A DNA stretch of 64,000 nucleotides, from the NCBI GenBank assembly GCA_963920665.1, contig OY987268.1, positions 17,548,501 to 17,612,500 on the forward strand, written 5' to 3'. Below are positions 30,961-53,090 of the stretch, one piece after another. The translations under genes were made by a program, and so were the position numbers. This DNA is from Straminergon stramineum (Eukaryota; Streptophyta; Bryopsida; Hypnales; Calliergonaceae). Position 1 is the stretch's first letter. Every line of letters begins with the position of its first letter. The notes under the pieces are model-generated. The model saw only the letters and a list, made by a program, of their open reading frames with translations, ran no database searches and was not told where the DNA came from.

Positions 30961-31852
30961 AAGATACACAATCTCTTAAAAATTAATTACCAAACTCTCC
31001 ATGTACAAAGTGCTATCCCCTCCCAAAGTGATAGCTTCCCTAAGCAAACAAGGAGGAGGAAGAAGATGATTCTCAACCTCATCCGCCACCTCAACTTCAT
31101 CCGCCACCTCAACCTCCATGCCATCCACTTAAGTTAGTGGATTTTGGCCACTGAGATGCCACATGGGCCATAATACCCACATGGGCTACTTCCTCTTCTC
31201 GATAAGTCTATCCATATCATCTACATGGATTTCTAATCCATTAAAAATAAAAATAAAAATAAAAATAAGAAAAAAGGTAAAACAAGCTTTACCTTTTGTT
31301 TTTACAACTTCAACTTAACTAACTAACATATTAAAATATCTTCTAGTATAGAAATCAAAGAACTAAATGTTTGTCAAATAGAGGTAAAAAAAAAGAGTTC
31401 AAGTGGAATATAACCCCATTTGTTTCTTGAAACTCTAGAAAAAAAAACCTCCAATTTAACAAACAATTATGCATTTTCACATAATGAACACATTTACAAT
31501 ACGACAACGGTATGATCGACCCCTTCATGGGAAAGGTACGTTAAAATTCTTCATATTTTGCTTTTTGAAATTTCAATTTGATTAAAATTTCACTTGATAG
31601 AATAAACCATGGAAAATTTTAGGAAAATTAGAAAAGATAATCAACATTTAAAAATTACAATTACAATTTAATTTAGAAAATAATCCAAAATTTAACCAAT
31701 CACAATTAGATAAACCTTATTTGAAATTTGGATGAAAAATTAATATTTCCATCCAAAATAATCAAGCAAAGGAATCTCAAAATTTTGGGAGAATTTAAAA
31801 TTAAAATTAATTAGAAATTATAATCATTCGTTAAACTAAGAGTTATTAATAA
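30961..31852. other. AT-rich flank left of the giant element
   Basis: No gene. It includes a short (AAAAAT)n stretch at 31243-31268 and a repeated CATCCGCCACCTCAAC at 31080-31115. Immediately before the element end the sequence is TTATTAATAAA, discussed as a possible diverged target duplication. Confidence 0.4.
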
Positions 31853-31876
31853 AAGGCCTTATTTGTTAAATTGAGA
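31853..31876 (+). repeat. Left terminal inverted repeat
   Basis: It starts AAGGCCTTATTTGTTAAATT and matches the reverse complement of 52252-52275 for 24 bases. A related sub-motif TTAAATTGAGACAATTCAAT recurs at 31924. The first 8 bases, AAGGCCTT, are themselves palindromic. Confidence 0.7.
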
Positions 31877-32402
31877 TAAGCTGTGGTCTCATTTTAATTC
31901 ACTTCTATATTTAGAAAACAAAAGAGTTCATTAAATTGAGACAATTCAATAAATTAAGACTTAAAAATGTCCAAGTAATTTTTTAATTAATTTAATTATT
32001 GCTATAAATAGTAGGAAGAAGCCGCATTCATCTTTTGAACATTTTTACTTCATTAAAAATATACACTTTAAATCATGCAAGATGTCATCAATTCAGACAT
32101 TTCTTGAAATTGAGAGGTGCATCTATGAAAGGACTAATCTTTAGGTTGTTGATACCAAACTTTAACATCTAAAACATCTTTATTACAAAACATTCAAATG
32201 AATACACTTAATGTAGAACATTCGAGAGAAATAAGAAGATAAAATATACTATTAATAGAAATCAACAATTGTAACACAATCAAACTACCCTAATAAAATG
32301 GACAAAATATATTTCTGCAAACATCTCAAAACATGTAAATGCAAAGTCCATGCCACTTCACACCCTACAACAAAAACTACTTATATACCTATACACTATA
32401 AT

Positions 32403-35400
32403 TCATCCTTCCGCCGTAGACTCATCATCGTCTGAATTAGCCTTGAAGGCTTCCACTGATGCTTTGATGATGTCAATTTGAAGCTTTGGAATTGCCACCC
32501 TTGGATCTAAAGTCCCCTCTCGCATACGTGGCTTCCAAGCGGTCATGATATAGTGTGTGCTCGACCATGTTGGGGTTATTGCTCGATCTTTACGCCACAC
32601 ATTCCCTTTTTTTGTGTCCCATCCATCATATGTTTCCATGTTAATGTGTCGATCTGAAGCTGGCGTCTAATATTGGATTTGGATCATATTCATATGCCCT
32701 GGATTTGGATTTGGATTCGTAATGGCTCTAGCAAGCCATAATGGCTTGGAGTCACCGTTAGCAGGCCGCACCACAACAAAATAACCTGCAAACGTATTGC
32801 GATTAACACGGAAAGAAGCACGAGGACGATCACGCCTTCGTTCAACAAAGGGTGCATCCTCTGCATCCCCTTCAGGTAGTGTACCATCCCTCTCCCTGCG
32901 TTCTTCCTCATCATGGATGATCCTCGAAGCCGGCCAAAATCCATGTAGTAATGTCTCACGCGGCTCTAGAGGTGCATCAAGAGTTGCTTGAACACCTTTC
33001 CAATACTCTTTTATAGGGCCATTTTTCCTCCTAAATTCTCTAGATTGGTCATCGTTTGCCATTCCGCTCCAGTGTACAATGAAACCATTCAAACCTCTCT
33101 TGATCTCATCGAGAGAACGCATCTTCTCCGGAACTAGAGGTGGTGGATCACCGCTTGGAAGTATTGGACGTCCGTCTTCAGTCTCAGACCACAAGCGAAT
33201 TCCTTTGCTATCCTCTGGCAACCATTTCTTGTCCGTACACAGATTTTTATACTCCATCAAAGGTCATCCACTAGAATCCATGTAAAACTTGAATTGCTGG
33301 GACCTAGAATGACCTTCCAAAAAATCTCCTCCTATGCCCAAATACCCATCTACATATCGCTTGAGATCAGGAACTTCCTCGATGAGATGAGGAATGACGG
33401 GATGCGTTTCGCAATCCATGAAGGATTTCATGAGTTTTGGAAGTGTTGGATAGTTGTTTGTCTTCAATTTAGTGCTCCACCAACCAAAAAGAGCGTCAAT
33501 GTCTTCATGAGTGTGCCCAACAATGAGGAAATTGATGTACACTTCGCAGAAAATCCCTTTGTATATAAGTAGGGAACAAAAAGCAAAAACCCATCTATTT
33601 TTATTGTCCCCTGATGCATTATCCAACTGCAAAGTCAATATTGGTGGTAAAGGTTGAGCTGGAATTGCTTCTCCCGGAGGAGGAAGGAGAGAGTCCAAGC
33701 AAATATCTGCCTCTTCCAAAATCGCCTTGGTTAATGTGGATTGCGTCTCCTTTTTAGAGAATAATTTGCGCAATGAATTCTTTGGTGGTTCATCAACATC
33801 ACGCAACAACTTTGCGATGGACCCGATGGTATGATTTGAAGTTTTCGGAAAAATGTCTAAACCGTAGTGTGCATATCGAACATCCCCATGCCCATGAGTA
33901 ATCATACCCGTAACTGCAATAAGCATTTTCATGTAGGAATCCGTTGATTTAGTTTTGTGAGAGAAGTGTGGAGAAGCGGTCTTGGAGTGATCCATTTTAT
34001 GATGGATAATGGTTAGCATCTTCTCAGGATATGTTTCAGAAACATGTCGATTTGCATAGTACAATTTTCTATAGGCCCTTTGGCCCACAAGGTGGGTATC
34101 CAAAGCAACGGTCCACCTCTCTTGCACGTACGAAAGGGGAGTGCATGCGCTCCTCAATAGCTTGTATCTATCACACAAGCCACATCTAGCGAAATTGTCT
34201 CCACGTGCTTTTGGAGCAAATTCTGGAAAAGAAGTACGTCAAATGTTGCTCAAGCCACTCAAAGAAATTGGTTGCAAATTTAAAGTTGCATTGGCCTCAT
34301 TGATTTTTGGTAATTGATCACTCCACCAAAATGCAGACGGCAAAACCATTGCAGGGACTTTCTCCCCTGATTCTAGTGTCACGACCCTCATCACAAGGCT
34401 TGCTCGTGCCACCTTGGTGAGCAAGGGGGACATTGAGGGTGACTCCCCAAGCCTTGCAAGAGATGACGTGAGGGGGACTAGGAGTCCCGAGCGATCAGAG
34501 CAATGTAGCGCTCTGATCCGGACGAATTTGGAGGCGTGTGATACATGCTTGGAAAGGTCTTGAGAAGACGCTTCCAGCCGTCCAAAGAATGCGTGATTTG
34601 GACTTGCGAGTCAAAAGTTATGGGCGTTCAAAGTTGGGGGGTGTCTCGGTCGCGCCGGGAGTGCCCTGGCCGCGCCGGGAGTGTCCCGAATCTTTGGAGG
34701 GCGATATCTTTGCGAGTACTTGTCCGAATGGAGCAAGTGAGAAGTCCATCGGCATCTACGCGTCGCGTAGATGACGAAAATGGGGTCGCATGTGCGATTT
34801 GGATCCCGGAACGCAAAGTTATGCCGGGTGGAAGTTCGGGAGTCCCAAAGTAGTGCGAATCGGGAGAAACGGGGTGATCTTCCAAAACCAAAGGGTGTTT
34901 GGGAGTCCCCCTTGACATACAAGGGGGGGGGGCTGCCGAATCCCGCAGAGAGTACTATGAGGAGGGGTGGTCTCCCTCCTCACTCCCGGATGGTGCCATG
35001 GTGAGCCTAAGTGGCCCCGGGTGGTGAGGTTAATGTTGGAGCCTCACCACCACTTGTGTGTTACCATGGAGTGCTTGTGCACTCCTTGATACCGGTTGGG
35101 TGGTGTCCCACTCCACACTAGGCCATGGTGTGAGTCCCGTTTGGTGAGTCCCGAAATGAGTTAGGTTGGGCCTAGTGGGGAGTTGGGTCCCATTCAAGGG
35201 CGGTTAGCACCGATAGGAGTAGTGCCTCACCGAGTGCTTGGACATCAATGGAAGTTCCGCCCCATGTCATCAAATGACATGCCCGGAAGGAAAGGATTGG
35301 GAGTCACGAAGGAATGGGGAACCCCGTGACTTGAGTTGGAACCTAACATTGTGGGTGCGTGGCATGTGCAGTGTTAGGAGAGCGTGAACCTTGGTGGCAT

Positions 35401-36342
35401 TGAGGTATTAAGTGTTTGGAAAGTGAGCTTAAGGTGGTAAGTGTTACTCAAGGGCGCGACATCCAATGTCCTCGTTTTGTGTAGCATTTTGTCAGCTTCA
35501 GGAACCACTAATGTCCGAAGTGTTGCAGTAGCTTGTACAGTATGTTTCCGTGGTTTTTTGGACCCCAAATTCCCATGCGCCTCTGCTTGCTTCCCATCCT
35601 TAGCCATCTCTTTGTACCTATAAAAGGTAGCTTTTGAAATCCCATGAATGGTCTACCATGCAGTGGGACACACTTCCCTCCCTTTCAAAGTAATCCACTT
35701 TTTGCTAGTAGGATCTTTGTGGATCTGCCTATGCACTTCAAGAAGACACTTCTTCCGAGCATATACCCCATCATTTACATGGAGTTCAGAACGAATGGCT
35801 TGAATTTGCCCGCGCAGAAAAGGTTGCAAACAATTGTTTGGACAACAAGTTTTGGTAGAGACTTCAATGATCGCTTGAGGAACCAAGAGGGTCTCTTTTT
35901 TGGGATAACTGAGCTCCATTCTCTCTCGAAAGCTTTTATAGGATTGAACCCCTTTACGAATTCTTCTATTCATAGCATTCATGGCCGTGTTATAAATATG
36001 CGTCTGGTCATGATCATACAAACTGACACTAAAGAGAAAAACTCGCTTGATGTGCCAAGAGTGAATTGACCACATCCACCCGGTTGGGACTTCTACCTCC
36101 CACAAGGACTGCGCAATTTGAACAGAAACTCGATCATCGCCAAGAGGCTTCCCGTCGCTGTCTACCACAACATCTAGATCGACACTTTATAAGACTGCAT
36201 TTGCGACATCGTCCCCTGCTTCATTACGGAGAGTGACTGGTTTAAAGTTCCACTTCGCACGAGGAATCCCGTCACATGTGCAAACACCAAGGTGTAACGT
36301 AGACACCGGGTTTGCAAAATCTTCAGGTCCGTGAATATCCAT
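32403..36342 (-). pseudogene. DUF7869/DDE-like transposase gene, interrupted by solo LTR and nonsense codons
   Basis: The ATG is at 36342-36340 and the natural stop TAA/TGA-type codon ends at 32403. Leaving out the LTR (34377-35461) and one 5-bp target copy gives one uninterrupted 950-codon frame (2850 bp). A helix-turn-helix-like segment (ISKATFYRYK) follows codon 230. A C-x2-C pair (CGLC) lies near residue 356. Transposase motifs are KMDHSK (about 420), LQLDNASGDNKNR (542-553) and VGHTHEDID followed by FGWW (578-590). In DUF7869 proteins these correspond to an RNase-H-like acidic core with the HxHED-D signature. Five in-frame stops occur at codons 52 (TAA), 230 (TAG), 338 (TGA), 663 (TGA) and 862 (TAG), with no frameshift. 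The expected role is element mobilisation; this copy is dead unless the stops are bypassed. Confidence 0.8.
34377..35461 (-). mobile_element. Solo LTR inside the transposase gene
   Basis: It is the reverse-orientation copy of 25535-26646 (1085 bp versus 1112; it lacks about 27 bp near 35284). On the minus strand it runs TGTCGCGCCCTTGAGTAACA to CGTGACA. Flanks on the minus strand are TTGGA and CTAGA, a 5-bp duplication with two transitions. Removing the LTR and one flank copy restores the reading frame exactly, which proves insertion into a pre-existing transposase gene. Confidence 0.9.
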
Positions 36343-38350
36343 TCTGCGGGCTAGAGCCAATTGGTGAATGAGAACAATTATCTAAGATACGTGAACAACA
36401 CATAATCGTCTAAATGTATCACACTCAATTTGAAACACAAGACTATATGAAATATACATTATACACAATCTATTTTGCAATATATTACAAAGAAAATTCA
36501 TATCCTCAAATCGATGTGAATTCTTAATCAATTGGAATTGTAGATAACACAAATCAAATTAGCTGACACACTAATCACAAAATACATATGTCCATCCTCG
36601 AACCGAAGATAGAGTAAAGAATTGTCTTTACCTCAGAATTTGTAACTACAAAATGTTTCCTTGTGAATAATTTCTAAATATATTTTTCATATGAAGTAAT
36701 AAATTCAGAAAGACTTCAAGCAACAACAAACAAATGATTGGTCCAATAATGTAAGGGAAATTTTGACTATTTCTAAATGACGTATAATGTGACTCTATTA
36801 ATTAGCAAGTTCTCCATGATATAGAAAGTAGAATGCAACTGTCCAATTTAGAAATGGGTATCGTCAACTCGACGATAATCATGTGTGAAACCAAAAATGT
36901 AAACCTTCCAACATTATCAGATAAAGAGCTTCTCGTCAATTACGAGATATACAACATACAACTTCTAAATATATAAATCTCACATTCATGACAAAATAGA
37001 TAATACTAATGTATTCCTAAATAAAATAAATATCATTGAATCCATGATAACAAAACCTATAAACGGACATAAAGGCTATCTTCAAATCTAAGATAATGTA
37101 TCAGAGACATTCCAAGGAATACCAACACAACATAGTCGAATAATGTACGGATGTATATTATCAATTTATAAAACAAATGAAAATGAAAGGATTATGCACA
37201 AAGTAAAGATGAGTACCACTGAGTCGACAATATCCTCCTGAGAAAACAAATATATTAACCTTCCTTAGTTATAATCTAACTAGGAATCCAATATAGCCTT
37301 ATCGATGATAGAGGTCATTCTTGAAAATGTGACTTATCCTCGAGTCGACGATACGACCATCAGACAAATACTTTTCTAAAATACTTTACAATTTATAAAC
37401 TAGGGATCCCAATTACGAGATTTAAATATCGTCGACTTGAGGATAAAACTTCTTGAAAAATAAACCTTCCATCATTACACTTTAAGATGAATATTGTCCA
37501 TTACAATATAAAATTGATATAATTCTTAGAAATATAAAACTAAGACCTATCCTCCTGTCGACGATAAGATCCACATATTACTAAATTAAATGGATATCGT
37601 CGACTCGAGGATATGATGGATGAGTCTCAAGAATGCAAACCAATATATCTTCTCTTGGAGTCCATGATTCTCAATTACATATTGAGTTCTCTTGATATTG
37701 TCGACTCAACGATATACTCTATATTGATATAATATAGGATCCTCCGAAAATTTCGGCGAAATGTTGGGAGACGTATTCCTCACCATCGCAATGATGCACA
37801 ACACCAACACTCGCATCGGACATAATAGCAATCAAATTTCTATGTTTCACTCTTTTGCTAATGAAACTACTAATTGAAAATCAATGGGATGTCCGGTACA
37901 ACAATAACAGGAAGTAGTGCGTACTCTACAAAGGATAAGTCAAAGCATAATACTACTTACCAGCAACTACAGTCAATGTACACACTCGTCTTCTTAAAGT
38001 CCCCACTATCTGAACAGGCCTATTGGAAACAAAGGAGGATTGGAAATGCGAAAAACAAAATGACGAAGCATCTTCTCAGTTAGAGGTGAGAAACTAAAAA
38101 ATGAGAACAATCAAATGGCGCGGCTGTGCAAGCAAAACACAGTTGCGATGTCAAAATTGCAAGGGAGAGAGCTTGAGCTTCCGCTTTCGAGGGGCGGGGA
38201 AGAATTGGCGCGGGAATTCAAATTCCTTGGAAATACATGGCATCTGACAATGTTTGTGGTCCATTTTCTGTGGCAGCACTTAAATGCCTCTTTATGTGCC
38301 GCTTTGTGCGAGCTTTGCGGCATAAAGATGCGGTTGAAGAATAAAAGTAG
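36343..38350. promoter_or_regulatory. Upstream region of the transposase gene with six palindrome copies
   Basis: No coding sequence is called. The region is AT-rich except for a GC-richer stretch at 38100-38340 whose frames on both strands (38111-38420) are unrecognised. It holds six 19-bp palindromes at 36859, 37335, 37427, 37548, 37595 and 37696, plus degenerate copies at about 36930 and 37214. Its position 5' of the minus-strand gene makes it the likely promoter side. Confidence 0.45.
36859..37714. repeat. 19-bp palindrome cluster A (6 copies)
   Basis: Copies at 36859-36877, 37335-37353, 37427-37445, 37548-37566, 37595-37613 and 37696-37714 fit TATCnTCGA-S-TCGAnGATA. For example, 37595 reads TATCGTCGACTCGAGGATA and 37696 reads TATTGTCGACTCAACGATA. 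Intervening sequence is not repeated, so these are dispersed binding-site-like units rather than a tandem array. Confidence 0.85.
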
Positions 38351-38364
38351 CCCAGAAAGGGTTT

Positions 38365-38516
38365 CTGTAATACCAGCCCAAAAAGGCTTCACTAAGACCA
38401 GCCAAAAAAGGCTTTACTAATACCAACCCAAAAGGCTTTACTAATACCAACAAAAAAAAAGTCTTCGCTAATACCAACAAAAAACAGTCTTTGCTAATAT
38501 CAACCAAAAAAAGGCG
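38365..38516. repeat. Short tandem repeat, six units of 23-28 bp
   Basis: AATACCA-(A/G)CC(C)AAAAAAGGCTTTACT units start at about 38369, 38394, 38419, 38442, 38470 and 38496. They lie in the central region between the divergent genes. The overlapping minus-strand frame at 38292-38543 (KPFGLVLVKPFLAGL-type) is a translation of the repeat and is not called. Confidence 0.75.
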
Positions 38517-38697
38517 TTCGTTTATAGTGTATCTGCTATTCATGTCATTGTTTTAATTTCTGTTCATGTGACTGTCATTAATAGGGGATTCCTAATAATT
38601 GCTTCTTTGCTTATACTTTGTCCAGTGTCCGAGTTTTTTAAAAAGTCCTTCCTTCGACGGTTTAGGATCCTAATTATGTGCAATGTAGGAATCACAC

Positions 38698-38725
38698 CTT
38701 AGGGTTTAGGGTTTTAGGGTTTAGG
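38698..38725. repeat. Interstitial TTTAGGG-type run
   Basis: Three to four degenerate units of TTTAGGG/TTTTAGGG occur in succession. Such short runs are common in plant intergenic DNA and fit a plant genome. It is too short to indicate a telomere. Confidence 0.7.
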
Positions 38726-38832
38726 ATTATGAACAATTCTAGATTTCTAGGAAAAAAAATTTGGAATCTACTAAGTTTCTTAGGAGATGCAATTTATGTG
38801 AAGTTCATCGCTTTATTGTACGAAAGTATTCT

Positions 38833-41800
38833 TTAACCCCTAAAGTCCCAATGTACTTATGGGGGACAACATGGATTTTAGGTACATTCCTATAAGCTCC
38901 TTTGTTAGTGTTTTTTTTAAAACTTTCTCGTAAGATATAAAAACTCATTAGCTTTGGGGGAATATAGTTTGTATTTCAATCAGTGTTCAGGAGTAGAAGG
39001 TATGCCAGAATAACCTAAAAATGGGGAGAGTGGGATGCAAACAAAATTTGTAAAAAATTGTTTGTTTTTTTAAAAAAAATTTATTCTTGGAGATTATATT
39101 TTTGTCTAAATGGGAAGCTTTGATTCATCCTATTTGGATTAGTGATATGATAGATATAGAGTTCCTTATTTACCAAACAATTGGACCGTCTTATTCAATC
39201 CAAAAATTTCTTTCACTGTGAATGCTAATACCTTTCAATGCAACATAGTCAATATATGTTTGTATTTAATTTTTGTGTTGAACTATAAAGTTGGGGGCAA
39301 GAGGAATTTGAAAATTGAGAAATTTAAAAATAAATAAAATCAGCAAAATTAAAGATCATGTGCCTATGCAGAGCTTGTATTCTACCAAGAATACAATACA
39401 AGAGTTTAGATATACATTGGGATGAGGAAGAATACTTGTATGAGTTGTAGAGGTTGCATGGAGGGTGACCAATGTAGCCGGTATGCAACAATTATAGCAA
39501 CTCCATTACAGCCCTACTCTTCTAATACAACTTCAATGTAGGCCTAGTCCTAAAGTTTCAATGATTTTTCAAAAACAAATGAAAAGGGTGCAAATTGTTT
39601 TTTAGATTTCCTTGGGAATATGAACTTTGGGCCTAGTTTGTTGATTTTCTAATTTTCGAATAGCATGATAACTTTCATTTATACCATGTTCTTATGCATT
39701 AAAATATAATGGTACTAATATGGTGAAAATTTCAGATTTTTTGAGTCTATTCACGATAAGTAAGAGTGTTTTTCATTTTTCTCTTAAGAATTTCACAATA
39801 ATTTGAAATAATCTCAAAGTAGAATTTCAAACCTCATTTGGGGCATAGTAGAATAATTTTTTTCAAAAAACTTGGATCTTTAAAAATTTGTGAAATGAAG
39901 CCAAGTTTCATTTACAAAAATGGATTTGAGATTTGAAGACTCGAATAAAAAGTTATGGACACATATCAAAGAGAATGTTTTTAATTGTCCAAAAAAATAT
40001 CTCTTCCAATCCCTCTTTGAAACTTTTCCATAACTTTGACCCTAAACCCTAAACCTCCAAAAAAAATTTAGAGATTAAACTTAGCTTAATTACCCACTTT
40101 TTTTTAGTTCAAAGTTTTTTGAAAGAAGGTATTCTACTATGCTAAAATGAGGACTAAAATTCTACTTTGAGCACAATTCCTGCATTTTGACAATGAGTGG
40201 TCAAGCTCTCATCTTCAAATTATCCCATACCCTGAGAGGATTCATGATGGACAATTCATTATTAAAGGATGTTCCCACCTCGATTTTGAGGAAAGGTTCA
40301 TTTAGAAACAATGCTAATGAAGTTGATGGGGACCTCAACTTCGACTTACTATGACGTTACCTTATAGCATGTCAAGATGTTTTGAAGTCCCCACAGTAGA
40401 AGTTGTGTCTCTAAATTATAGGGGAATGCCTCGGCTGAGTGTTGCTACAACAAACCTTATAGCATCACAAGATGTTTTGAAGCACATCCTAGCATCATAC
40501 CTTTCTACATTTGGATGACATGCATGTCAATGTTTTCACATACCTACACATGTGCTCCTATAAAATATTAAATCCTGCAAACCATAGAACATGTGAGAAC
40601 GTTCAAAAAAATTCATTGCTGGAATTACTCTTGTAATGAATGTTTGAAATTTTTTTTCATCGACATGTTTTTTTTCTAATTCTAGGATGGGGAGGAAGCC
40701 TAGGTCCTGGATAAAGAAGAATAAAGTAGAAAGGTGGAAGGATGTTTGGATTGAAGATCACAACAAATATGAATGTTTGTTTTGCAAATGTATCATACCC
40801 AACTTTTAATGATTGGTACATATATGCCTTTCAGGACCTCTTACAAATTAAATATTTACCATGTTTTAGTGCAAAAAAAGTTTTTAATAGTAACCCTTGA
40901 AAATTGCCTACAATATTTTTTAAAATAGTCAAGGGTATTGTATTGCCTACACAATGTCAAGCCTGAAATTTTATATCAACCATGAATAGTTAATTGGACA
41001 ATTAGGAATAAATAAAAATATTCATTTGGCATTGGAAATTTTGTGCCTAAAAACGATATGGTATTTCAAAGTTTATATCTAAATCACACAACTAACACTC
41101 AAACCCTGCAATTGACACTTGAATTGTGTACACTATTCAGTCAGATGAGTAATGACTAGAGGCCATCCATCAATTTTGTGACAATGGCCCTTCTCCAGGT
41201 ACACTTGACTTGTTCTCCAGGGTTGTATCTCACTATCCAATAATACGGATTGACTCCATGGTATATGAACAACTTATTTTAGAACCACCCTACACTTCCC
41301 AATTTATCACGTTCAACATTTTTTTCCACTTGGTGTTTTGACATTTTGAAATTGTACTTAACTACAATATGTATGATAGGAAATTTTTTTGCCTTCAATA
41401 TAGTCTCTTATTGTGGACCTATAGCCTATTGTATTCTCCTTTCATCAAAAGTATGGTGAAGTAGATGGTGACTGTCTCCAAACCCTCAAGCGTTAAGAGG
41501 TTAAGGGCCTTAAACTTTATAGATGACTTAAGAAAATAATGTTGCAATCTTTTTTAGCTAGTGCTAACCAATTTTTCGTTCAATGTAGAACAAAAGAAAA
41601 ATTTGAAATACTCTATAGATTCTTTGTCAAAAAGCATAAATCATACAAAATGTGTTGACTTCCAATGAGCACTTCCATTTTCTTACAAATTCATTATGTA
41701 ATGCATTTTCAAAATTTCCATGGTCAATAGTATGTCTTATAGGGAATACAAAATTAACCCCTGAACGTTGTGATGGATGTTTATTGTCCACTAAATGACA

Positions 41801-42588
41801 AGGAATTTTCCCCTATAGGTCAGAATTGCAACTATTCATCCTCAGAATTAGGGGTGGAATAGAAAGTTCTAAGGTGCATGATATCACATAATTTGAAAAT
41901 GACTGATTTCCATGGTCACCAACCCGACATTCAAAGGTTTACCCCTAAATGCCCTAGATACCAAAATGTTGTGTTTGCAAAACTTTGGAGTTAAAGAAAA
42001 CACTAACAATTGGCTATTTTGAAAAGCTTGTATTTCTGGAAAGTTCTCTTTGAGATTTACTTTTAGAATTACAAATCCGATTTTGAAAATGAATGATATT
42101 GATTTTTCTATCCAAGATTTTGTGCAAGGGTACCCATTGCAATCTTGACTTTCCATAGTGTTGAGGGCTCTTGGAAATGAGCCTCAAATACACTAGATCT
42201 TCGAGAAATAATCACATTCAAAATTCATTTAAAAGACATGTAGAGTATATTTTGAAAAGCCATAAATTGATTGGGGTTATGCATGTTAGGCCCTCTAATC
42301 TCATATTTTTTTTGGTCATCTATCAAACTTTTTAGATTTGACTTGTGAAAAGAGGATTGAAAGGCTTCACATCACTTTTCCAGTTTTAACACCCTCGTAG
42401 TCAAACATTATAATCTTTCACTGCATAAGTAATTTTTTTTTCCTATGTGATCTACAATATGTCTACATTGAATTTGTACGGTTACAATTAAAAAAAAATT
42501 GATACAACTTATCAAAATGTTGGCATTTTCTTCAATTGAGAGCAAATACCCCAAAACTCAAAACAAGCCTTGGGCATTTAGGGGTTAA
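38833..42588. mobile_element. Large TTAA-flanked element, piggyBac-like termini (3.76 kb)
   Basis: Left end TTAACCCCTAAAGTCCCAAT at 38833; right end CATTTAGGGGTTAA at 42575-42588. The first ~450 bp match the reverse complement of the 19400-20328 right side (GGACAACATGGATTTTAGG versus CCTAAAATCCAATTTGTC), and the last ~300 bp match the opposite side of that family. The middle (about 39280-42280) is not found in the short copies. It may be a longer version's interior or a nested insertion. It contains a 40-codon BED-like frame (40687) but no recognisable transposase. Confidence 0.55.
40687..40809 (+). CDS. Small ORF with BED-zinc-finger-like start, 40 aa
   Basis: The frame begins ATG at 40687 and ends TAA at 40807-40809. 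It has a basic start (MGRKPR, then KKNK) and then WKDVWIED, followed by KYECLFCKC. The W...Y-x-C-x2-C pattern resembles the first half of a BED-type zinc finger found in hAT-like transposases, but the C-terminal H-x3-5-H half is missing. It could be the first exon or a truncated remnant. It is short enough to be chance. Confidence 0.25.
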   Translation: MGRKPRSWIKKNKVERWKDVWIEDHNKYECLFCKCIIPNF

Positions 42589-42829
42589 AGAACTTATAGA
42601 ATAACCGCACCTCATGTTCGGATCCGAACGTGTAGGTTCGGCATCCATACAAGGGTTTGGGGAAATTGACGAACCTCCATACCAAGGCTGAGGTTCAGAA
42701 CCGGGGCAGTTGGTATGGTAGAGACCAAGGCTAAGGTTCGCAACCGAGGCGGTTGGTTTGGTGGAGACCAAACCTCCTTTGGCGGCTCGGCGTAGCCTTG
42801 GGAGGTCTTCTCTCTCCCTTCACTGTGTG

Positions 42830-43200
42830 TTGCTGTGTGAAGCTGTGTGAAGCTGTGTGAAGCTCGTTGTGTGAACGCTGTGTGAAGCTCGCTGTGTGAA
42901 CGCTGTGTGAAGTCGATGTGTGCAGCTTGCTGTGTGTGAAGTCAATGTGTGAAGCTCGGTGTGTGCAGCTTGTTGTGCGAAGCTCGGTGTGTGAAGCTCG
43001 GTGTGTGGAGCTCGCTGTGTGGAGCTCGTTGTGTGGAGCTCGCTGTGTAAAGCTCGCGAGTGTTGGAGCTTTGTATGAAGCTCGCTATGTGAAGCTCGCG
43101 AGTGTTGGAGCTTTGTATGAAGCTCGCTGTGTGAAGCTCGCGAGTGTTGGAGCTCGTTGTGTGAAGCTCGCGAGTGGTGGAGGAGTGCACAGGCAGCTCG
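42830..43200. repeat. GTGTGAAGCTCG-type degenerate tandem repeat
   Basis: Variants of TGTGTGAAGCTCG(C/T)TG recur more than 15 times, with a higher-order unit of about 54-59 bp (AAGCTCGCGAGTGTTGGAGC then TTTGTATG) repeated at 43052-43170. Several long frames cross it on both strands (42820-43320 minus, 42918-43241 plus). Their Ser/His/Thr- or Cys/Val-rich composition is simply the repeat translated, so no gene is called. Confidence 0.8.
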
Positions 43201-43952
43201 TGAGTTGCATGAGTGTGCATTCTGTTGGTGTGAAGTTGTGAGTTGAAGTTCGCATTCAACTGTGTAGTTCTGCAGTCTGTGCCACTTGACAGAGTTCCCA
43301 ACACTACACAACTTTGTCAAATTGGTGAGCTTTTTCTTTCTTTCTGACTACTTTTGCTAGTTATTCATGCATTGTTTGATTGTTTTGATAGTATTGCTAA
43401 TTTTCTTTTTAGAAGTGGCTTACTTGATAGTTGATTGTGCTTGAATGTTGGGCACTGCATTTTTTCCAAAGGCTTGGAATCACTCTGATTCCAATACTGT
43501 GGTTGCGCATTGACCAAGTAGAGGTGCTGTTGTTTCAGAATTGGGTTTCCGTTGTTGGGTTTGTTTAAGAATAGGGTTTTGATTGTTGGATTTTGGAATT
43601 TGTAGTTCTACTTTCATGAGTAATTGTTAGGAATAGGGTTTTGAACATATTTTCTCAAATGTGGTGCTCATGGGCGTTGCTGCATTTCACGTTGACTTCT
43701 AAAACAAAGTTGTATGTTTAAAAATCTCTGAGATTCCTTTTCTATGCTTACAGGTCTGTACTCCAATAAGGAAGAAGTGCCATTTCAATCTCCAAAAGCA
43801 TTCAGGAAGTTTATAGTACAGTGAGGTTTCAGGTATTCAATCTTATACAACTAAGTCTATGATTTAGGGTTTAAGAATCTCAGTTCAGTCTTAGTACACA
43901 ATTTTTGTTTGCAAATTCTCCAATTTTAGGTATTCGCTTATTAAAAAACACG

Positions 43953-44645
43953 TATCGTCGAGTCGAGGATACATTACAAACCTAGTGAACAAATTATTCT
44001 GTAGAGCCCACATATTTAGGGTTTTGATCATCAGAGAAACGTATCGTCGACTCGACGATACAATCATCCATGATAATCTTAACAAAAGTTTGATAACTAC
44101 GAAATTCGAATTCCCACATTCTCACCGAGGAATAACTCTGAAAATCCAATTAACAGAATATGCCGCCTCCCAGATCATTTCCCTTATCATCGAATCGACG
44201 ATACCCTCTTCGATAAAGAATTTAAGAAATGACATATTAGAAATTCATGAAAATACCTCAAATAGGTTTAGATCCCACTCGTATCATCGACCCGACGATA
44301 CGTTAATTAAAAATTAAAGATAAATCCACCTATCCAACGAGAAACCAACTACAAATTAATGATCAAAAGAAACATCTGGACGTCATAGTCATAAAATCTG
44401 ACTAATTTCATGCCTCTAATTCCAATATTAGAGTGAATAAATCACTAAGACATTAAAAATGAAGGTTAATGTTCATAGAAATCAATACCAATCTTCACAA
44501 TAATTTCAGCCAACACCCTCACCTAAATCCAGCTACCATTGAGTCAATCATTTTTATGCAACGCTTAGAAACCATCACCCAATTGTATGCCTAGTGAAAT
44601 TTCTCCTCTAGCAATCTAATTGAACTTGTCGTTGGATCGACGATA
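43953..44645. repeat. 19-bp palindrome cluster B (5 copies)
   Basis: Copies at 43953, 44042, 44185, 44282 and 44627. The 44042-44060 copy, TATCGTCGACTCGACGATA, is a perfect palindrome around its central base. The others differ at one to four positions. Further single copies lie at 46137, 46283, 47790, 48884 and 49067. Confidence 0.85.
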
Positions 44646-46114
44646 CCTCAATCTCTAACACATTCACACAAATCATTTGATAGGATCAAAAGATGGAGAA
44701 GCAAGATCTCTACGATTATTCCATAACAGCGCATCATTTTCAGCCATTCGTAAACCCCTTGAATGATGAGCCCTTCATCGATGAAATGGCAGATAGCTAC
44801 GGAATGCTGTGGGAGTTCAAAGATCATATCAGCACATGGACCTTTGGCGTGAACCGTTGGAGAAATTATGTCTATCTCAGATACTGAATTCAGGGAAAAA
44901 CAAGCTACCTACCTTGGAATATGAAAGAGAAGGTGACAGTGATTGAAGATCACCAGAGCAATTATGTTGTAATTGTACTCTGCGAAGTTGACGACAATGG
45001 AAACCAAAAAGACCACTGTCACTCCATTGTCATCAATGTAAATTCTTATTATGGGAAGTTTGATCTCGAGAACCTCATAACATTCTTGGAGGGGTCGCAA
45101 ATGGAGTCCCTTAATGAAGAATTTGAGAAATCTGGCTACGTTCCTTGGAAAAATGGCACTGCAAAATCCAATGGGACTAGGTTGCGCCGTATTTTCCAAA
45201 CTCTTGATCAATATGCATTGGCAAATGTCGAGCCTGCACCATCAATCGGTAGAAACCCCTTACAAGGCCAGAGAGGGGAATCTGAGAGTCGTCAACAAGA
45301 TGGATCTGGAGTCGGTGGTTCAGTGAGCAAAGCAACAAGACCAGGTCAGACGAAATCGGCAACAAGAAAGAGAGACAACACTTCAACAGAAGCCCCTCTC
45401 TCTAGTAGGAAGAAAAAGAGAAGTCTTCCAGGAGGAGTTGTAGGTGCTGGAAGTTCAAGGTCAGCGCTTACGACTGTATCGGTAGGTCCAGCATCCTCCG
45501 ATACTCCACAACCGGACTATGAGAAGTTTGCTTTAATTCAAAGAAACTTCTAGGCTAACCATAAGGCTTGTTTTTTACTCGGCCAGGAAACAGTATCCGT
45601 GGACATCAAATAGTGCATCCTGGCGAGTGATCAATATGTCATTCGAACACTGCAGAAGGATATTGTTGCTACTGTGAAGAATGAACTCATTCAACTGATT
45701 GACATGAAGCAGAGGCAGAAGGTCTGCCTTACCCCCGTCAATTCCCATAATCAACTTTTGAAAAAGAAGCTAGAGAAGCGGGAAGAAATCAAGAATGGAC
45801 GATTCATGATTATAAACGGTCAACACAGCATCACGGCTTCAAAAGAGCTTCAGAAAGGAGGTTGTGGAGAATCCCGTCGAGTAGAGCTTCAGACTTGGGA
45901 TGCTTTTATTGTCTGGACACTTAATCCAAACAAATTAAGAAACATCTCAAAATTCTACAATTGCACTAATCATTTGGATCATGCTCAACCAATGTGGGGT
46001 AACCAAATCATTAGCTGTCGAAACATCTAGCTCGCTTGCAAGCGCCCCACGGATGTTCGCTCTGAGGATTTAACTCAGAACAATAAAGCCGTCTTCAGCT
46101 TGACGAACTATAAG

Positions 46115-46367
46115 GTATGCAATTGGTCTTCCTCATTATCATCGAGTCGAGGATAACCTATTCGTTTCCTATGAGAATGTAAGTGTATATTGATAATATG
46201 GAATATGAATGACTCTGCGGTTTACTACTGTTTCGTGCATTATTTTATGTATGGACTATCTATGTTTTTATTGACATAGTTTTATCGTCGACCCGATGAT
46301 AGTATGAAAACAAATTCTATCGTTTCCATGATGGATGGTAACAGAATTATTGCATCGGAATGTGTAG
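46115..46367 (+). other. Intron 1 of the ParB-like gene, carries two palindromes
   Basis: Donor AAG|GTATGC and acceptor TGTAG|AG join exons in phase 0, giving TNYK followed by SFTDAIVERF. It is 253 bp and AT-rich relative to the exons. The 19-bp palindromes at 46137 and 46283 lie inside it. Confidence 0.6.
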
Positions 46368-47693
46368 AGCTTCACAGATGCAATTGTCGAGAGATTTCAA
46401 AATATTAATCCTGAAAAGGATGGTGCGTCAATCAAAGGGACCACGGATCTGAAGAATGAAATTTAGATCATCACCTTGCCCGATGCTCTTTGGGCGTTTT
46501 GGAATCGATTTCTAACAAAGCATTCCGAAGGCGAGCTGATGGAGCCAGTGTCCTTGAAACTGTTTAAGGAAATTAAAGGTTTCAAGATTAAAGCAATGTC
46601 CTTGAAAAGAGAGTTTTTCAAGCACTACGGATGGTTCACGGACATTGACTTTGGAGTTTTTGCGCAGCACCTGCTAGGTGAAACTCCGGGCCGTAAATCA
46701 ATATACCCAAAAGTCTCTGTGTCGAGAACAAAAATACTAGTTCCCAACAACATTGCGCATGGTGATTGGGTAGAGCAGAGGAAACGCAAGAAAGTTGTTC
46801 TACAGGATTTGATGGACTTCAAACCGTCTCTGAAGTTCATAGACAATGGCGGCGATGTCATTGATACGACTTGGAGAGCATGGAAGGTGAGGCACCGGTT
46901 TACTTCCACGTCGTGGGATTTCCTTCTCTCGCATCCTAGTGCTGAGTATTTTAAGAAACGTCTCGGGAACGATGCGTGGCGGAAGCAGGCGAAGGATCTT
47001 GACAAACAATTTCCGGAGGTCCTATATATGTTCAAGAGGTTTATGAAGCTGAAGTACCAACTTCCTAAACCTGCCGGAGGAGTGCAGGTACGAGGAATTG
47101 ACTTCATTGCCAAAGTGCTCGTCACCAGCACAAATTACACCTATCATCAACGAGAGGTTAACTTGGCTGTTCTGGATATTAGGGTGGTGCCACGATCAAA
47201 TCCAATTGATACGGAAAGCGCTATCGACCCCTTTCTGACTTTCCTTGACCAGAAACTAGAATCAAAAATGACTGAGCCTAATATCTGGCTCTTCATTCTT
47301 GGTGGGAAGGAGGACGTGAAGGCTATAACATCTTTTGCAGCTCTGAGGCTTCTTGGATATGACTCAATCATATCCACTTATGTCCCCAGTAGAGCAGAGA
47401 TGTTGAATAACGTGACGAATAGAGGAAAAGCACCGGACGTGCCGCTCCTCTTCCTTTTCAAAAAGGATAATGACTTTGCCACTACTGCCCGCATGTGCCT
47501 CAAATCAAAATATGACACACCTTCCGGCTATGTATACTATACTGATCCGTCCAAGAATACGGAAGCGAAGTGGAGGATACATCCTACTGAATTGCGGATG
47601 AAGTTTTATCTAGACGTACTCCAAGCCTTCGCAAAGCCAGATGAAAATGTTCTTGGCATCTATGCAGGACCAAAGTTCATGCTAGCTGCAAAG

Positions 47694-47884
47694 GTTAGTG
47701 TATCTTCTCTCTCAGAAATGATATTCTTGTATCTTGTATAGTTCATCAATTCTTCTTACTTTCTCTTTGAAGTACGTGCACTCCACTGTTATCCTCGGGT
47801 CGACGATAATATCATCTACGTTGAATATACATTCAAAATTGATTTAGAAATGCAAAATCTAAAATAATTGTGTGTGATCTGTAG
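47694..47884 (+). other. Intron 2 of the ParB-like gene, carries one palindrome
   Basis: Donor AAG|GTTAGT and acceptor CTGTAG|ATG join exons in phase 0 (LAAK followed by MFGVYFYG). It is 191 bp. The palindrome TATCCTCGGGTCGACGATA lies at 47790-47808. Confidence 0.65.
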
Positions 47885-48883
47885 ATGTTCGGTGTGTACT
47901 TCTATGGCTTCAATGACAGAGAAGATGCAAAGCCATACTCCAAAATCGCTCTCCTAGCGAATAAGATGGATAAGAATGACTTCTTGATTTCAAATTCACC
48001 TTATTCTCTACTGTACGATCGTCCCACAAACCGTGGACCTGTGGTCGTTCACTCCAACTCACCTCCATCGCCGCCCATGACATTGGAGTCGCCGCTCGAA
48101 AGTAATGTCGTGGGGAACCACTAGAGGGAAGCAGTTGGGCCACATGTAAGTATTGATCCTGGTGTTGAAGGAATCGATCAATTCGGGACAAACACATTCC
48201 AGCTTAACACATGGATGGACGCTCCTGCTATTCCGGTCGTATTGCAAACTCAACAACAGGACGAGGATCTTGAGACGGACACCGAGTTTGAAAGACATCT
48301 AGAGGAGCATGTTGGAGAGGAACGAGGGAGAGACTTTGAGGACGTTGTCATTACCGACGTGTTCGGATCCTAGGGGAATCGTGCAGCTGAAGAATCTAAT
48401 CCCTCAACAGGATTAGATAATCCCATCATCATAAGCGATGATGATGATATCGATCATCCGCACTCATCAGATGATGACGATGACGCAGATGGTGTTCCCA
48501 AGCAAGTCGAGCTAAAACCTGTCATCGCACCCTCTAGAGTGGTGGTGAAGGTCGAGAAGGACTGGTGGAAGAAAGATCAGGAAGCCAGGGAGAGGAGGAT
48601 AGCTAGGCAGAAGGAGTGGGAGGAAAAAGAAAGGCTGGTTGCTGAGCTACTGGCGGGCAACAAGGCTGCCAATGAGAAAATTACTGAACTCCAAGAGAAG
48701 TCGGATGCAAAATATGACGAGTTGCAAAGCCAGTTTGCAGTGCTCTTAAGTGCGTTGCAATCCCAGAAGAGCCAATCGCAGAGTTGTCCGATTACATTCT
48801 TTGTTCCGACTCCACAACCTCATGTGCCATCGGGTAGCGCTCCAGCCATGCAGGAAATAGCCCACTTGGTCAGTGGGCTGGCC

Positions 48884-49085
48884 TATCCTCGAGTTGAGGA
48901 TAAAGATGAGGCGGTCTCACTGGCACATGAAGACCTGGTTATCTCAACTCTAGCATCCCAGATCCCCAAGATTCCATCTCCAGATGAAGGGGCCTTCGAA
49001 GTATTGGTTCCTGAGGCTGCTCCTGACGTTGCTCGACAGGAAGACACCATTGAAGGAGATGAACATTATCATCGAGGTGACGATA
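48884..49085 (+). repeat. Two 19-bp palindromes inside coding exon 3
   Basis: 48884-48902 reads TATCCTCGAGTTGAGGATA and encodes YPRVED; 49067-49085 reads TATCATCGAGGTGACGATA and encodes YHRGDD. Both are in the same codon phase. They show the motif is kept or acquired even where the protein is encoded. Confidence 0.75.
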
Positions 49086-49711
49086 ATGTGGTCGAGGAGG
49101 CAGCACCAACTTCTACGGCTGAGCCTTATAATGCAGCGGTCTGTGAAGAATCACGTGAAGTCTGCGTCGAGGTGCAATCTCCCCTTTCTATGGAGGAAGA
49201 AAGGTTGGACTATGAAGTTGGTGATGAAGACCTTCTCGACTACGATCCGGAGGAGAGCGAGAAAGGAGAACCTTCAGCAGCAGAAGTGGCACCAGAGGAT
49301 CCATAAGGAACCGCTCACGTACAACCTTCTGACCCTTATGATTTCGATTGATTCCAAAACCTTGGAGTCATTCATGATTGTGTTCGATGATAGCAGCTAA
49401 GAAGTCCTCTACTAGTTATTGAATCTCATTTGTATCCATGCTTCATGACAGGATGTCATCGCTGCTACTTGATTGCTTGGCGTTGACGACGAATCTATCT
49501 GTGGCTACCATCCATGTACAATAGTGTAGCATTGTGCTCAGAGTAGTTTTCAATCAACTAGAGACGTTATAAAATTTTGTGGCTATAATATGAAGACTTT
49601 GTAAATTATGCCCAATTTCCATCGATTTGCACATTGATCTAATTGTCTTTGGCTTTCAATGTTTTTGTTGCTCAGCTGCACAAAAATAAAAGCGTGCACC
49701 ATCCGCTACTA

Positions 49712-51728
49712 ATGAAAGCACTTTCTAATGGGAGACCGCAGTCAATTAGGGGGACTGAATGCTTCTATCCACTCTCTAGATCTCCCGTTTCTGCATTTAA
49801 ACAGGTAACTCCATTTCTTTGTTGTTCTGTTTTCATTAGGTAGTAGCAGAGGGCGGGAGAGAAATCGTGCCCAGGAATGTGCCTCCCGGACTTCCTCCAC
49901 CGCAGAGGAAATGGCTGAACATTGTCTTCGACTTGAACGGCATACTCTACCATACTGTGATGAAGTCATACGGGGAGAAATTCAAACCGTACAAGCTCGA
50001 AGACAATGTTCTCTGCCACAGAAGTCCCACGATCATTGGACCCAAGGCGGTATTTGCTCGGCAAAATGTGGGTGAATTCCTCCGGTAGGTTTCAGCGATC
50101 GCGGATAGGGTCTTAGTGTGGACAACGATGTTGAAGCGTAACGCAGAACCCATCGCTGGACACCTATTCAACGGTTGTAGAGCACCCTACAATATACTCA
50201 GTCAGGAACAGTGCAAAAAGATAGAGTACTCCCCGAGAAAGTTCTATCATCTCGCTAAGAAAGTGCATTGTTTGAAAGTGCTCTCCGAGACCTTGTTCTA
50301 CAATCTGAGCAGAAGCACGTCCTTCACCTCGGATAATACGCTTCTCATTGATGACTCTCCGAACAAGAGTGTCTGCAATGAGAATGGGAATGCCATATTC
50401 CTAGACACTTGGATGCACCATAATCATAGAGACGATGTCCTCCTGGGGGAACTCGTGCCATGGCTCAAACGTCTAGATTCAAACTGCCAACCGGGCCAAT
50501 TGCAAACATATGTCGAGGAAAACCGCATTGGTTTGAATCCATTGGGAGTCGGGGACTACAAGGTGGAGTCATTCATAGACGGGATGAGAGAGTCCTCGAA
50601 GGTCATGGGTTCTAGATACGAACTTCCTGGCATGGGCTTAATCATAGAGCGAGGCCGACGTAGGAAGTACGCTGTAAAGTAGATTCTTTGTAGATGTGAG
50701 ATAACATTTTATGTATAGTCCTCAATTTGTATGCTACGATCTTTTGTAAATAATATATTGAGTTTGCATTTCCCTTGAATCTTTGCCATGGACTCGGGGG
50801 TTTACTCTACATGTCTCCCAGTCTCAATTGAAGATGCTTTTGCATTTGTTGGACGGAGGTAATGTGGGTGGGCTTGTTGATCATTTACGTACTACAGGTT
50901 GGAGGCGTTCACTTTGTTGAACCACCGAAAAGGCAACGGCTGACAAGAAGTCTACTCTCTGGATCGGAAAGATCCCTCTCCAACCCCTCGGAATCCGAGG
51001 GGGGGAATTACAACACCGCTCCGTATTCCAAACCGTACCTGCTGCGATCTGCTGTAGACATTGCATCCGCGGCCATAGACTATTCCCAGGGGGACATTGA
51101 AGACGGGGTCGTGGACAGCCCCCCGAGTCGCGAACCTGTGAGGACTCCCATATGCTCTCCACCGCCGTTTTAGCGAGCATCCTCGAGTCGTGGGAATTCC
51201 TTCTCGCCAAAACCGCGAACGGATGCGGCAACAAGTCGCAAACTAAAACTACCCTTGCATGAAGAGCCGGGACATCCTCGGCTCGAAGATGATGTTCCAA
51301 CTCCGTCTGCAGGTCCTAATGTCCGCATCGATGGATTGAAGTTGGCGGCTGCGTCGGAGGATGATAGAGGGGGGGTGTTACGGAAGCCGACTACTAATGT
51401 TACTGTTCGGAACGAGGATAAGCAACCTCGTCTCTCGCAATCTGCAGGAGCCAGACGATCTCCTTCTGCCAATAGTCTTTTTAAGCAACGAATTTGCAGA
51501 GAACATCGTCGTTCGCTAGACTCCAAAACAAGAAGGACTCCACTTCCGGACATAGATGCTGCCGAGGCGGCCTCCTCGAGGGTCAAGATCGCTTTCGGGT
51601 TCAGGGGCCCCCCAAGCCACTCAAAGGTCAAAGCGAAAGGAAAATGGAGCTCACAGCTTGAGCTTATGCGAGTCTTTGGGGGGGGGAAGTGGGCCACACT
51701 ATCATTCTCGACGTGAGGATATCTTTAA
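49712..51728 (+). pseudogene. FCP1/HAD-like phosphatase domain gene of the element
   Basis: Predicted exons are 49712-49804, 49840-50673 and 50898-51716 or 51728, about 581 residues. The HAD motif I region is NIVFDLNGILYHTV (codons 58-71). Motif II-like LVWTTMLKRNA lies near 122-133 and the late motif LLIDDSPNKS near 200-208, as in FCP1/NIF-type CTD phosphatases. The usual DLDxT is DLNG here: the nucleophilic first Asp is kept and the second is Asn, as in some plant FCP-like proteins. The C-terminal third is Ser/Arg/Pro-rich and unrecognised. In-frame TAG stops lie at codons 114 and 401. The first proposed intron is only 35 bp (GTAACT...TTCATTAG), so the 5' structure is uncertain. If active it would dephosphorylate Ser/Thr on a protein such as an RNA polymerase tail (inference). 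Confidence 0.65.
50674..50897 (+). other. Proposed intron 2 of the FCP1-like gene
   Basis: Donor GCT|GTAAAG (weak, no preceding G) and acceptor ACTACAG|GTTGG keep phase 0 and bypass the TAG at 50680. Without splicing the phosphatase would end at codon 311 and the Ser-rich downstream frame (50862-51716) would be separate. The spliced model joins KYA to VGGVHFVEPPKRQR. Confidence 0.4.
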
Positions 51729-52251
51729 AGGACTAGCAAAGCTCAAAGCATTGGAAACAGCTAGGAGCAATTGTACAGAAATAGACAAAGTAAAGATTTC
51801 GCCATCAACAAGTAAATCAAACCAGTAAATATTTCAAAGCACTTAGTTTTGAGGTACCCTTTACTATTAATAGTATAGTAAGTAGACATACAAATATACT
51901 TTCAGAAGTTCAATGCTTCATACACAAGAAACTGCTACATTGATTCCATTGAATCTTTCGCCTTCATAGTTCATTCACTACAAAGAATATTTACATACTC
52001 TTTTTGTATTAAACCGCACAAGTAATTCCAACTTACTCACTTTGAAATGACTCCCTTTCTTTGTACAGAGTACTTCACATCTTCTGTTGTATTGATGCAA
52101 TTATAATCTCATGTGTCAAGTCAATTGGGGCAGCTTGTTCAAGGCTTTCTATTGTTGTTACATGGCCGGCTCTACATATCGTTGGGTTCAACAACTCTTA
52201 ATTCGCTCAAGCTTTGCATCCATTTTTCAAAGTCTCAAAATTGTCATTTTG
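51729..52251 (+). other. 3' flank between the FCP1-like gene and the right terminus
   Basis: No gene is seen; about 520 bp, AT-rich. This mirrors the ~550 bp between the transposase stop and the left terminus. It would hold the 3' UTR and subterminal sequence. Confidence 0.5.
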
Positions 52252-52275
52252 TCTCAATTTAACAAATAAGGCCTT
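52252..52275 (-). repeat. Right terminal inverted repeat
   Basis: Read on the minus strand it starts AAGGCCTTATTTGTTAAATT and matches the left terminus over 24 bases. Next to it, inside the element, CAATTTTGAGACTTTGAAAAATG (minus strand) resembles the left subterminal segment ending AAGACTTAAAAATG. Confidence 0.7.
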
Positions 52276-53090
52276 ATAAATGAAAATTTAATTTGTTAGA
52301 TTTTTAAACCAAATTTCATTCATTAATAACTTTTCATTAGGAATTTAGGTTTTTGGTGTCTTACCTTGTTGGGAAGGTAATTTCTGAGTTTTCATTTTAA
52401 GAAACATAAAACCCTAAAAAACCATAATTTTAGAATAGAAACTTTGATTTAAATTAGAATAGAAGATAATTAAAAAGAATTTCTAAGGAATCTTTAAGGA
52501 ATCATCTAAATTAGGAATCAAATTAGAGAATATTTTAAAGATTCTAGAACCTATTTTCATTTAAAAAATACTTTGATTTTAAGTGAGAAAAGGTTGGATG
52601 AAGTTTGATCTTAATTTGGATGAAGTTCTTTAATTAGTGGTCAAATTAGGTTTAGTCTTAGAATTAGGTAACTAACGTAATTAAAAACCTCAACCCTAAA
52701 ATTTAGATTCATTTTGATTAGTTTTACTATTTTTAATTCATGGATGAAGGTTGTGATGTAGTTTAGAGATCAATATTTCATCCATTCATTTCTTTTATTA
52801 GGAAAGTTAGAATTTAACTTGCTTTATCATTCTGGAAAGGGCAAATTACATTCTACAAGTTAGGTTAGATTGATTTTAGTTTGAATTCATCTTTTGATTA
52901 GTTATTTGATTTAGTTAACCATAGTTTTAAAAATTAGGATTTACATGATTTAAGTTCAATTTGGATATTTAAAAACAAAGTGTCCATTGCTTGGAAGGCC
53001 CGAATTGAACTTAGATTAGAAAAATCCTAAGGAAATTGATTTAAGAGGCCATTAGAACCCGTGTGCAAGTTTTAACTCGAAGGGTGGAGT
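52276..53090 (+). repeat. Retrotransposon-internal relic
   Basis: GGTTGGATGAAGTTTGATC and GTCCATTGCTTGGAAGGC match the repeated motifs of 11800-12480 and (in reverse) 16740-17900. No gene is seen. Confidence 0.4.

Follow-up and report, generated by a model that had tools for sequence, protein, structure and literature searches.

Two kinds of transposon are among the closest described systems. According to the available parts of the reports, the VANDAL (MULE) transposons of Arabidopsis and their VANC anti-silencing proteins are associated with short motifs that cluster in introns and in noncoding DNA upstream (PMC5735166), a layout of VANC targets published in PMC5735166 and PMC10398659; the available part of PMC12730594 describes fungal terminal inverted repeat (TIR) DNA transposons that carry TET/JBP dioxygenases beside the transposase, and its main text has no occurrence of DUF7869. 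Here we analyse a stretch of 64,000 nucleotides from the moss Straminergon stramineum (GCA_963920665.1, contig OY987268.1, positions 17,548,501 to 17,612,500, forward strand; hereafter the window), in which sequence evidence supports the interval 31853-52275 as a single mobile unit, a large TIR DNA transposon carrying a DUF7869 transposase, a second gene and a family of palindromes. In the literature searched, outside which most subscription journals and Repbase fall, DUF7869 is not named, and no transposon with ParB or an adenine methyltransferase, nor a bryophyte palindrome transposon, appears in the titles or abstract openings among the matches listed.

The element spans 20,423 bp, and both of its borders are exact 24-bp inverted ends:

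31849..31852, no strand: ATAA, left copy, possible 4-bp target site duplication (sequence)
31853..31876, plus strand: left terminal inverted repeat, 24 bp (sequence match)
52252..52275, minus strand: right terminal inverted repeat, same as left (sequence match)
52276..52279, no strand: ATAA, right copy, possible target site duplication (sequence)

The terminal repeats (AAGGCCTTATTTGTTAAATTGAGA) are identical at 24 of 24 positions, as the original prediction had claimed, with no other match in the window even when three mismatches are allowed, and none in 100 shuffles. ATAA stands directly outside each end of this one copy, where the chance agreement of a 4-mer is 0.0084 per fixed comparison. 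Stop-to-stop open reading frames (ORFs) of at least 150 aa, as listed for the 64-kb window without those running off it, all lie inside the element (11 of 11). Removal of two nested insertions of 3,764 bp and 1,085 bp (38829-42592 and 34377-35461) leaves about 15.6 kb, the size predicted earlier; the accompanying claim of about 550 bp between each gene end and its terminus holds on the left (about 552 bp from the transposase stop, near 32405, to 31853), whereas on the right it holds only from the end of the last low-complexity ORF at 51716 (about 559 bp) and not from the stop of the FCP1-like gene, which lies about 1.6 kb from the end.

The left-hand gene unit runs towards the left terminus, in agreement with the prediction of a leftward DUF7869-type transposase:

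32403..36342, minus strand: DUF7869 transposase gene, broken by five in-frame stops in two aligned pieces and by one 1.1-kb insertion (Pfam, alignment)

Its joined minus-strand ORF pieces match PF25273 (DUF7869; E=1.8e-42, 145.6 bits against a curated cut-off of 26). A sequence match in the PDB is absent at E up to 1; the structure model of the protein resembles DDE transposases and integrases, with what may be an RNase H-like core. Residues D423, D426, D549 and D591 are invariant in the 39 sequences aligned; they fall in or just after two modelled strands (417-425, 543-549) and in a helix (588-603), where the three acidic residues of DDE/RNase H transposases are expected. Close to the left end, TAAATTGAGA, which is part of the terminal repeat, recurs at 31867-32115, with 5 of its 22 window matches (at most one mismatch) within 263 bp of that end; these are candidate transposase-binding repeats.

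The second gene (44693-49306, plus strand) consists of three exons joined in frame at GT...AG sites:

44693..46114, plus strand: exon 1, with the NGQHSITASKELQ motif; four in-frame stops (ORFs, alignment)
46115..46367, plus strand: intron 1, containing two palindromes (46137, 46283) (splice sites)
46368..47693, plus strand: exon 2, helical domain and N6-adenine-methyltransferase-like domain; one in-frame stop (structure model, alignment)
47694..47884, plus strand: intron 2, with a palindrome at 47790 (splice sites)
47885..49306, plus strand: exon 3, in which the methyltransferase-like part continues, followed by an acidic and coiled tail; further in-frame stops; palindrome matches at 48884 (one deviation) and 49067 (three deviations) (ORFs)

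With the end of exon 1 plus exon 2 as query, 61 relatives are listed (29-83% identity over the aligned part), many of them carrying palindromes in their introns; the full-length protein as query found none, probably because the stored form of most relatives is a single exon. When the contigs of 92 of the 120 listed transposase rows (left out: P0101-P0120, five rows lacking a contig and three whose Ceratodon records are of chromosome size) are compared with those of all 61 second-gene rows, a contig size of 46,150 bp is common to both lists (P0001, P0124, P0158) and covers both tested second-gene exons, with two more exact matches at 460842 (P0016, P0162) and 493283 (P0079, P0138). The 46-kb case is strong evidence that transposase and second gene are linked, by size on one contig, and the two cases near 0.5 Mb are weaker evidence. 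Together with the matching ends and the possible 4-bp target duplication, this linkage supports the single mobile unit that had been proposed. Because its exons recur in 61 listed relatives, many with intron palindromes, the second gene looks more like a core component of the element than like stray cargo, so that the earlier description of unusual cargo genes fits this first right-hand gene poorly. Similar cluster sizes (647 transposase sequences for P0013, 700 second-gene sequences for P0134) give only a hint of high copy number and of one genome in which both genes may have multiplied together.

In its structure model, exon 2 resembles a degenerate N6-adenine methyltransferase. The position of the catalytic DPP[YW] motif reads D-x-R in 27 of the 28 relatives with letters there, and that of the S-adenosylmethionine-binding loop FxGxG reads G-x-K in 25 of 25, so that the protein looks like a conserved pseudo-enzyme, a methyltransferase dead by motif. 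Its earlier designation as ParB-like stands for the motif but not for a scored domain, and leaves out the methyltransferase likeness of the exon 2 model: hhalign against phage ParB-type proteins places NGQHSITASKEL opposite the phage GHxR motif in a weak match (P=0.26), and none of 24 members matches ParB in Pfam, making the label a weak one. A parS-like partition role was rejected, given the weakness of the ParB assignment and that a nuclear transposon needs no partition. With the second protein as query, PHROGs, Pfam and PDB sequences gave nothing usable, the two PDB rows of the A1 profile being arginine methyltransferases with E of about 0.5; tblastn of exon 2 found no match in phages, and viral contigs yielded neither an exact palindrome nor a relative of the transposase or the second gene.

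The palindrome is a 19-mer with the consensus TATC(G/C)TCGA-N-TCGA(G/C)GATA. Its window matches (TATCSTCGASTCGASGATA, at most three mismatches) number 15 against 0.03 expected, and all of them lie inside the element, between 36859 and 49085, just as a family limited to this interval had been predicted. The second gene has three of them in its introns and two in exon 3; the remaining ten lie between the two divergent genes:

36859..37714, no strand: six palindromes upstream of the transposase (36859, 37335, 37427, 37548, 37595, 37696) (motif search)
43953..44300, no strand: four palindromes upstream of the second gene (43953, 44042, 44185, 44282) (motif search)

The exon 3 palindrome at 48884-48902, with one deviation, falls in apparently coding sequence (AYPRVEDK) and marks either an unrecognised intron or a site within coding sequence.

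For relatives of the second gene, the stored ORFs extend into an intron, and these tails were checked for their ability to encode the palindrome. Tails were long enough in 33 of 52 cases, 19 of which fit the palindrome better than all 300 shuffles and 14 of which do not. With positions 5, 10 and 15 free, at most one mismatch and tails of at least 19 bases, the palindrome is held by 21 of 37 relatives' tails, at 24 sites. Pairing between positions 5 and 15 (G/C, C/G or T/A) is possible in 21 of the 24, against 11.4 in shuffles and with 0 of 10,000 shuffles reaching that number, a statistic inflated by relatedness (three sites are near copies) and including some arms read from ambiguous codons. 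Three different arm pairs occur among these palindromes; since the site stays symmetric while its sequence shifts, the pattern implies the binding site of a dimer, as far as sequence can tell. Two observations weigh against this pattern: the tails of the six most distant relatives (11 to 60 residues) hold no palindrome, and only 4 of the 15 window palindromes have pairing arms, the rest being mixed or altered.

A diverged copy of the second gene (41% in exon 1) is found on L001 (CADCWO010000074.1), which is filed in a Synechococcales metagenome bin and whose protein is in UniRef. Because this gene has a spliceosomal-type intron, L001 is probably eukaryotic, apparently moss DNA binned into a cyanobacterium and not of bacterial origin. 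Its five palindromes all belong to the TATCCTCGA type; intron 1 holds one of them, and the other four are upstream; as L001 encodes P0172, the intron site is already part of the covariation count. In a nucleotide alignment with window positions 36301-49400, only two short coding stretches and the palindrome align. TG-rich DNA lies at about 1021-1300 of L001, upstream of its second-gene copy.

In the mechanism that we propose, the DDE-type DUF7869 transposase would move the element by acting on the 24-bp inverted ends, and a homodimer of the second protein would bind the palindromes, its dead methyltransferase domain serving DNA binding and not methylation; the bound protein may then shield the promoters and introns of the element from host silencing by keeping them open, the role of VANC for VANDAL. 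Such anti-silencing is favoured because the palindromes lie away from the ends, within introns and in the DNA upstream of the divergent genes, as in the layout of VANC targets; we infer both the binder and the consequence, and hold this reading tentatively, with a confidence just short of even. A wider proposal is possible but doubtful: sequence-specific anti-silencing would have arisen independently in a lineage of bryophyte transposons, with a phage-type ParB/adenine-methyltransferase protein converted to a catalytically dead, dimeric DNA binder of the palindrome repeated in the promoters and introns of the element, and protein and palindrome would change together between families.

The palindromes could instead be the transposase's own binding sites, used for end assembly or for autoregulation of its divergent promoter. 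Many transposases bind internal repeats, and 6 of the 15 palindromes are upstream of the transposase gene; yet even the nearest ones keep a distance from the ends of 5.0 kb (left) and about 3.2 kb (right), both introns of the second gene contain them in relatives, and the motif repeated near the left end is a different one (TAAATTGAGA), which makes this explanation fairly unlikely. Distinctly unlikely is a second protein acting as a repressor or autoregulator (DndB/DGQHR-like, with its own operator palindromes) that limits transposition: its NGQHS motif, which we take to resemble DGQHR/ParB-type proteins, and palindromes placed like operators, in the window ahead of each of the two divergent genes and in L001 ahead of its second-gene copy, would fit such a role, but repeated intron sites would be unusual for a simple repressor. 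That two unrelated loci or elements lie side by side with coincidentally matching ends is highly improbable, for although other insertions interrupt this old copy, and the linkage of the FCP1-like gene to the other two is seen at this locus, the exact 24-bp ends with no chance match, the confinement of all 11 listed ORFs to the interval, the shared 46,150-bp contig size and the same palindromes beside both genes all speak against it.

The copy at 31853-52275 is a dead and old one. Four coding pieces align without frame change over 473 of 474, 442 of 442, 294 of 299 and 654 of 654 codons, and the ten in-frame stops within them can each be explained by one C-to-T or G-to-A transition (two also otherwise); exon 3 and the FCP1-like gene carry further stops outside this comparison. 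Moreover, 11 of 18 palindrome deviations are CpG transitions, a pattern of wear as would be expected of a methylated, silenced element. Relatives with open reading frames exist for both the transposase and the second gene.

Further features of the element are a third gene and two later insertions:

49840..50682, plus strand: FCP1/NIF-like phosphatase gene, interrupted by an in-frame stop; DLNGIL as its first motif (Pfam)
50900..51716, plus strand: low-complexity ORF, possibly a further exon of the FCP1-like gene (ORF list)
34377..35461, minus strand: 1,085-bp insertion with TG...CA ends, resembling a solo long terminal repeat, within the transposase gene (sequence comparison)
38829..42592, no strand: later nested element, 3,764 bp, with 23-bp imperfect inverted ends TTCTTTAACCCCTAAAGTCCCAA (repeat comparison)

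The FCP1-like protein matches PF03031 (E=5.5e-14, 52.6 bits against a cut-off of 21.8), so that of the presumed cargo this gene is, by Pfam, a real one, and the two predicted plus-strand genes running right are both present. DxDxT is the catalytic motif of FCP1/NIF phosphatases; the first motif reads DLNGIL instead in this decayed copy, the only one in which it was read. A clean target duplication was looked for but not found at the 34377-35461 insertion, and none is seen at the flanks of the nested element. Within the latter, 39813-40171 is occupied by a folded-back pair; about 300 bp to its left, at 38353-38511, is a separate set of tandem repeats with units of about 25 bp, and an array of 14-bp TGTGTGAAGCTCG-type units occupies 42823-43184, upstream of the second gene.

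These results would place a transposon around DUF7869, a domain family so far unassigned. A seemingly dead methyltransferase under constraint, together with a covarying intron palindrome, would offer a clear and testable case of how transposons of early land plants may evade silencing by the host; if protein and palindrome do change together, the families would be ready-made protein-site pairs for sequence-specific epigenome tools.

By model comparison, the DUF7869 protein appears to share an RNase H-like core, with conserved acidic residues, with Mos1/Metnase and retroviral integrases, but has extra N- and C-terminal parts, the last of which matches PWWP chains. In phage ParB-type DNA methyltransferases, as apparently in the second gene, a single gene joins an N-terminal motif of ParB type to a methyltransferase part of the N6-adenine, beta-class-like kind, but they show no significant sequence similarity to the second protein (hhalign P=0.26 and 0.31), whose gene has changed catalytic motifs and eukaryotic introns. 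The fungal TET/JBP elements, as far as the available text describes them, are a parallel of principle, being TIR transposons in which a DNA-modifying enzyme accompanies the transposase; the enzyme here is of another kind and appears inactive by motif. VANDAL transposons, on the same partial basis, also combine a transposase with further proteins and have an element-specific motif in introns and upstream DNA. Among the Pfam matches of the scanned pieces (the first 490 bases of exon 3 lay outside the scan) only DUF7869 and NIF pass the cut-offs, with no VANC-type domain. The present element differs from VANDAL in having a DUF7869 and not a MULE transposase, a palindromic 19-mer with covarying arms where the published motifs are same-orientation 9-mers, and, as its candidate protein, a methyltransferase that its motifs suggest is dead.
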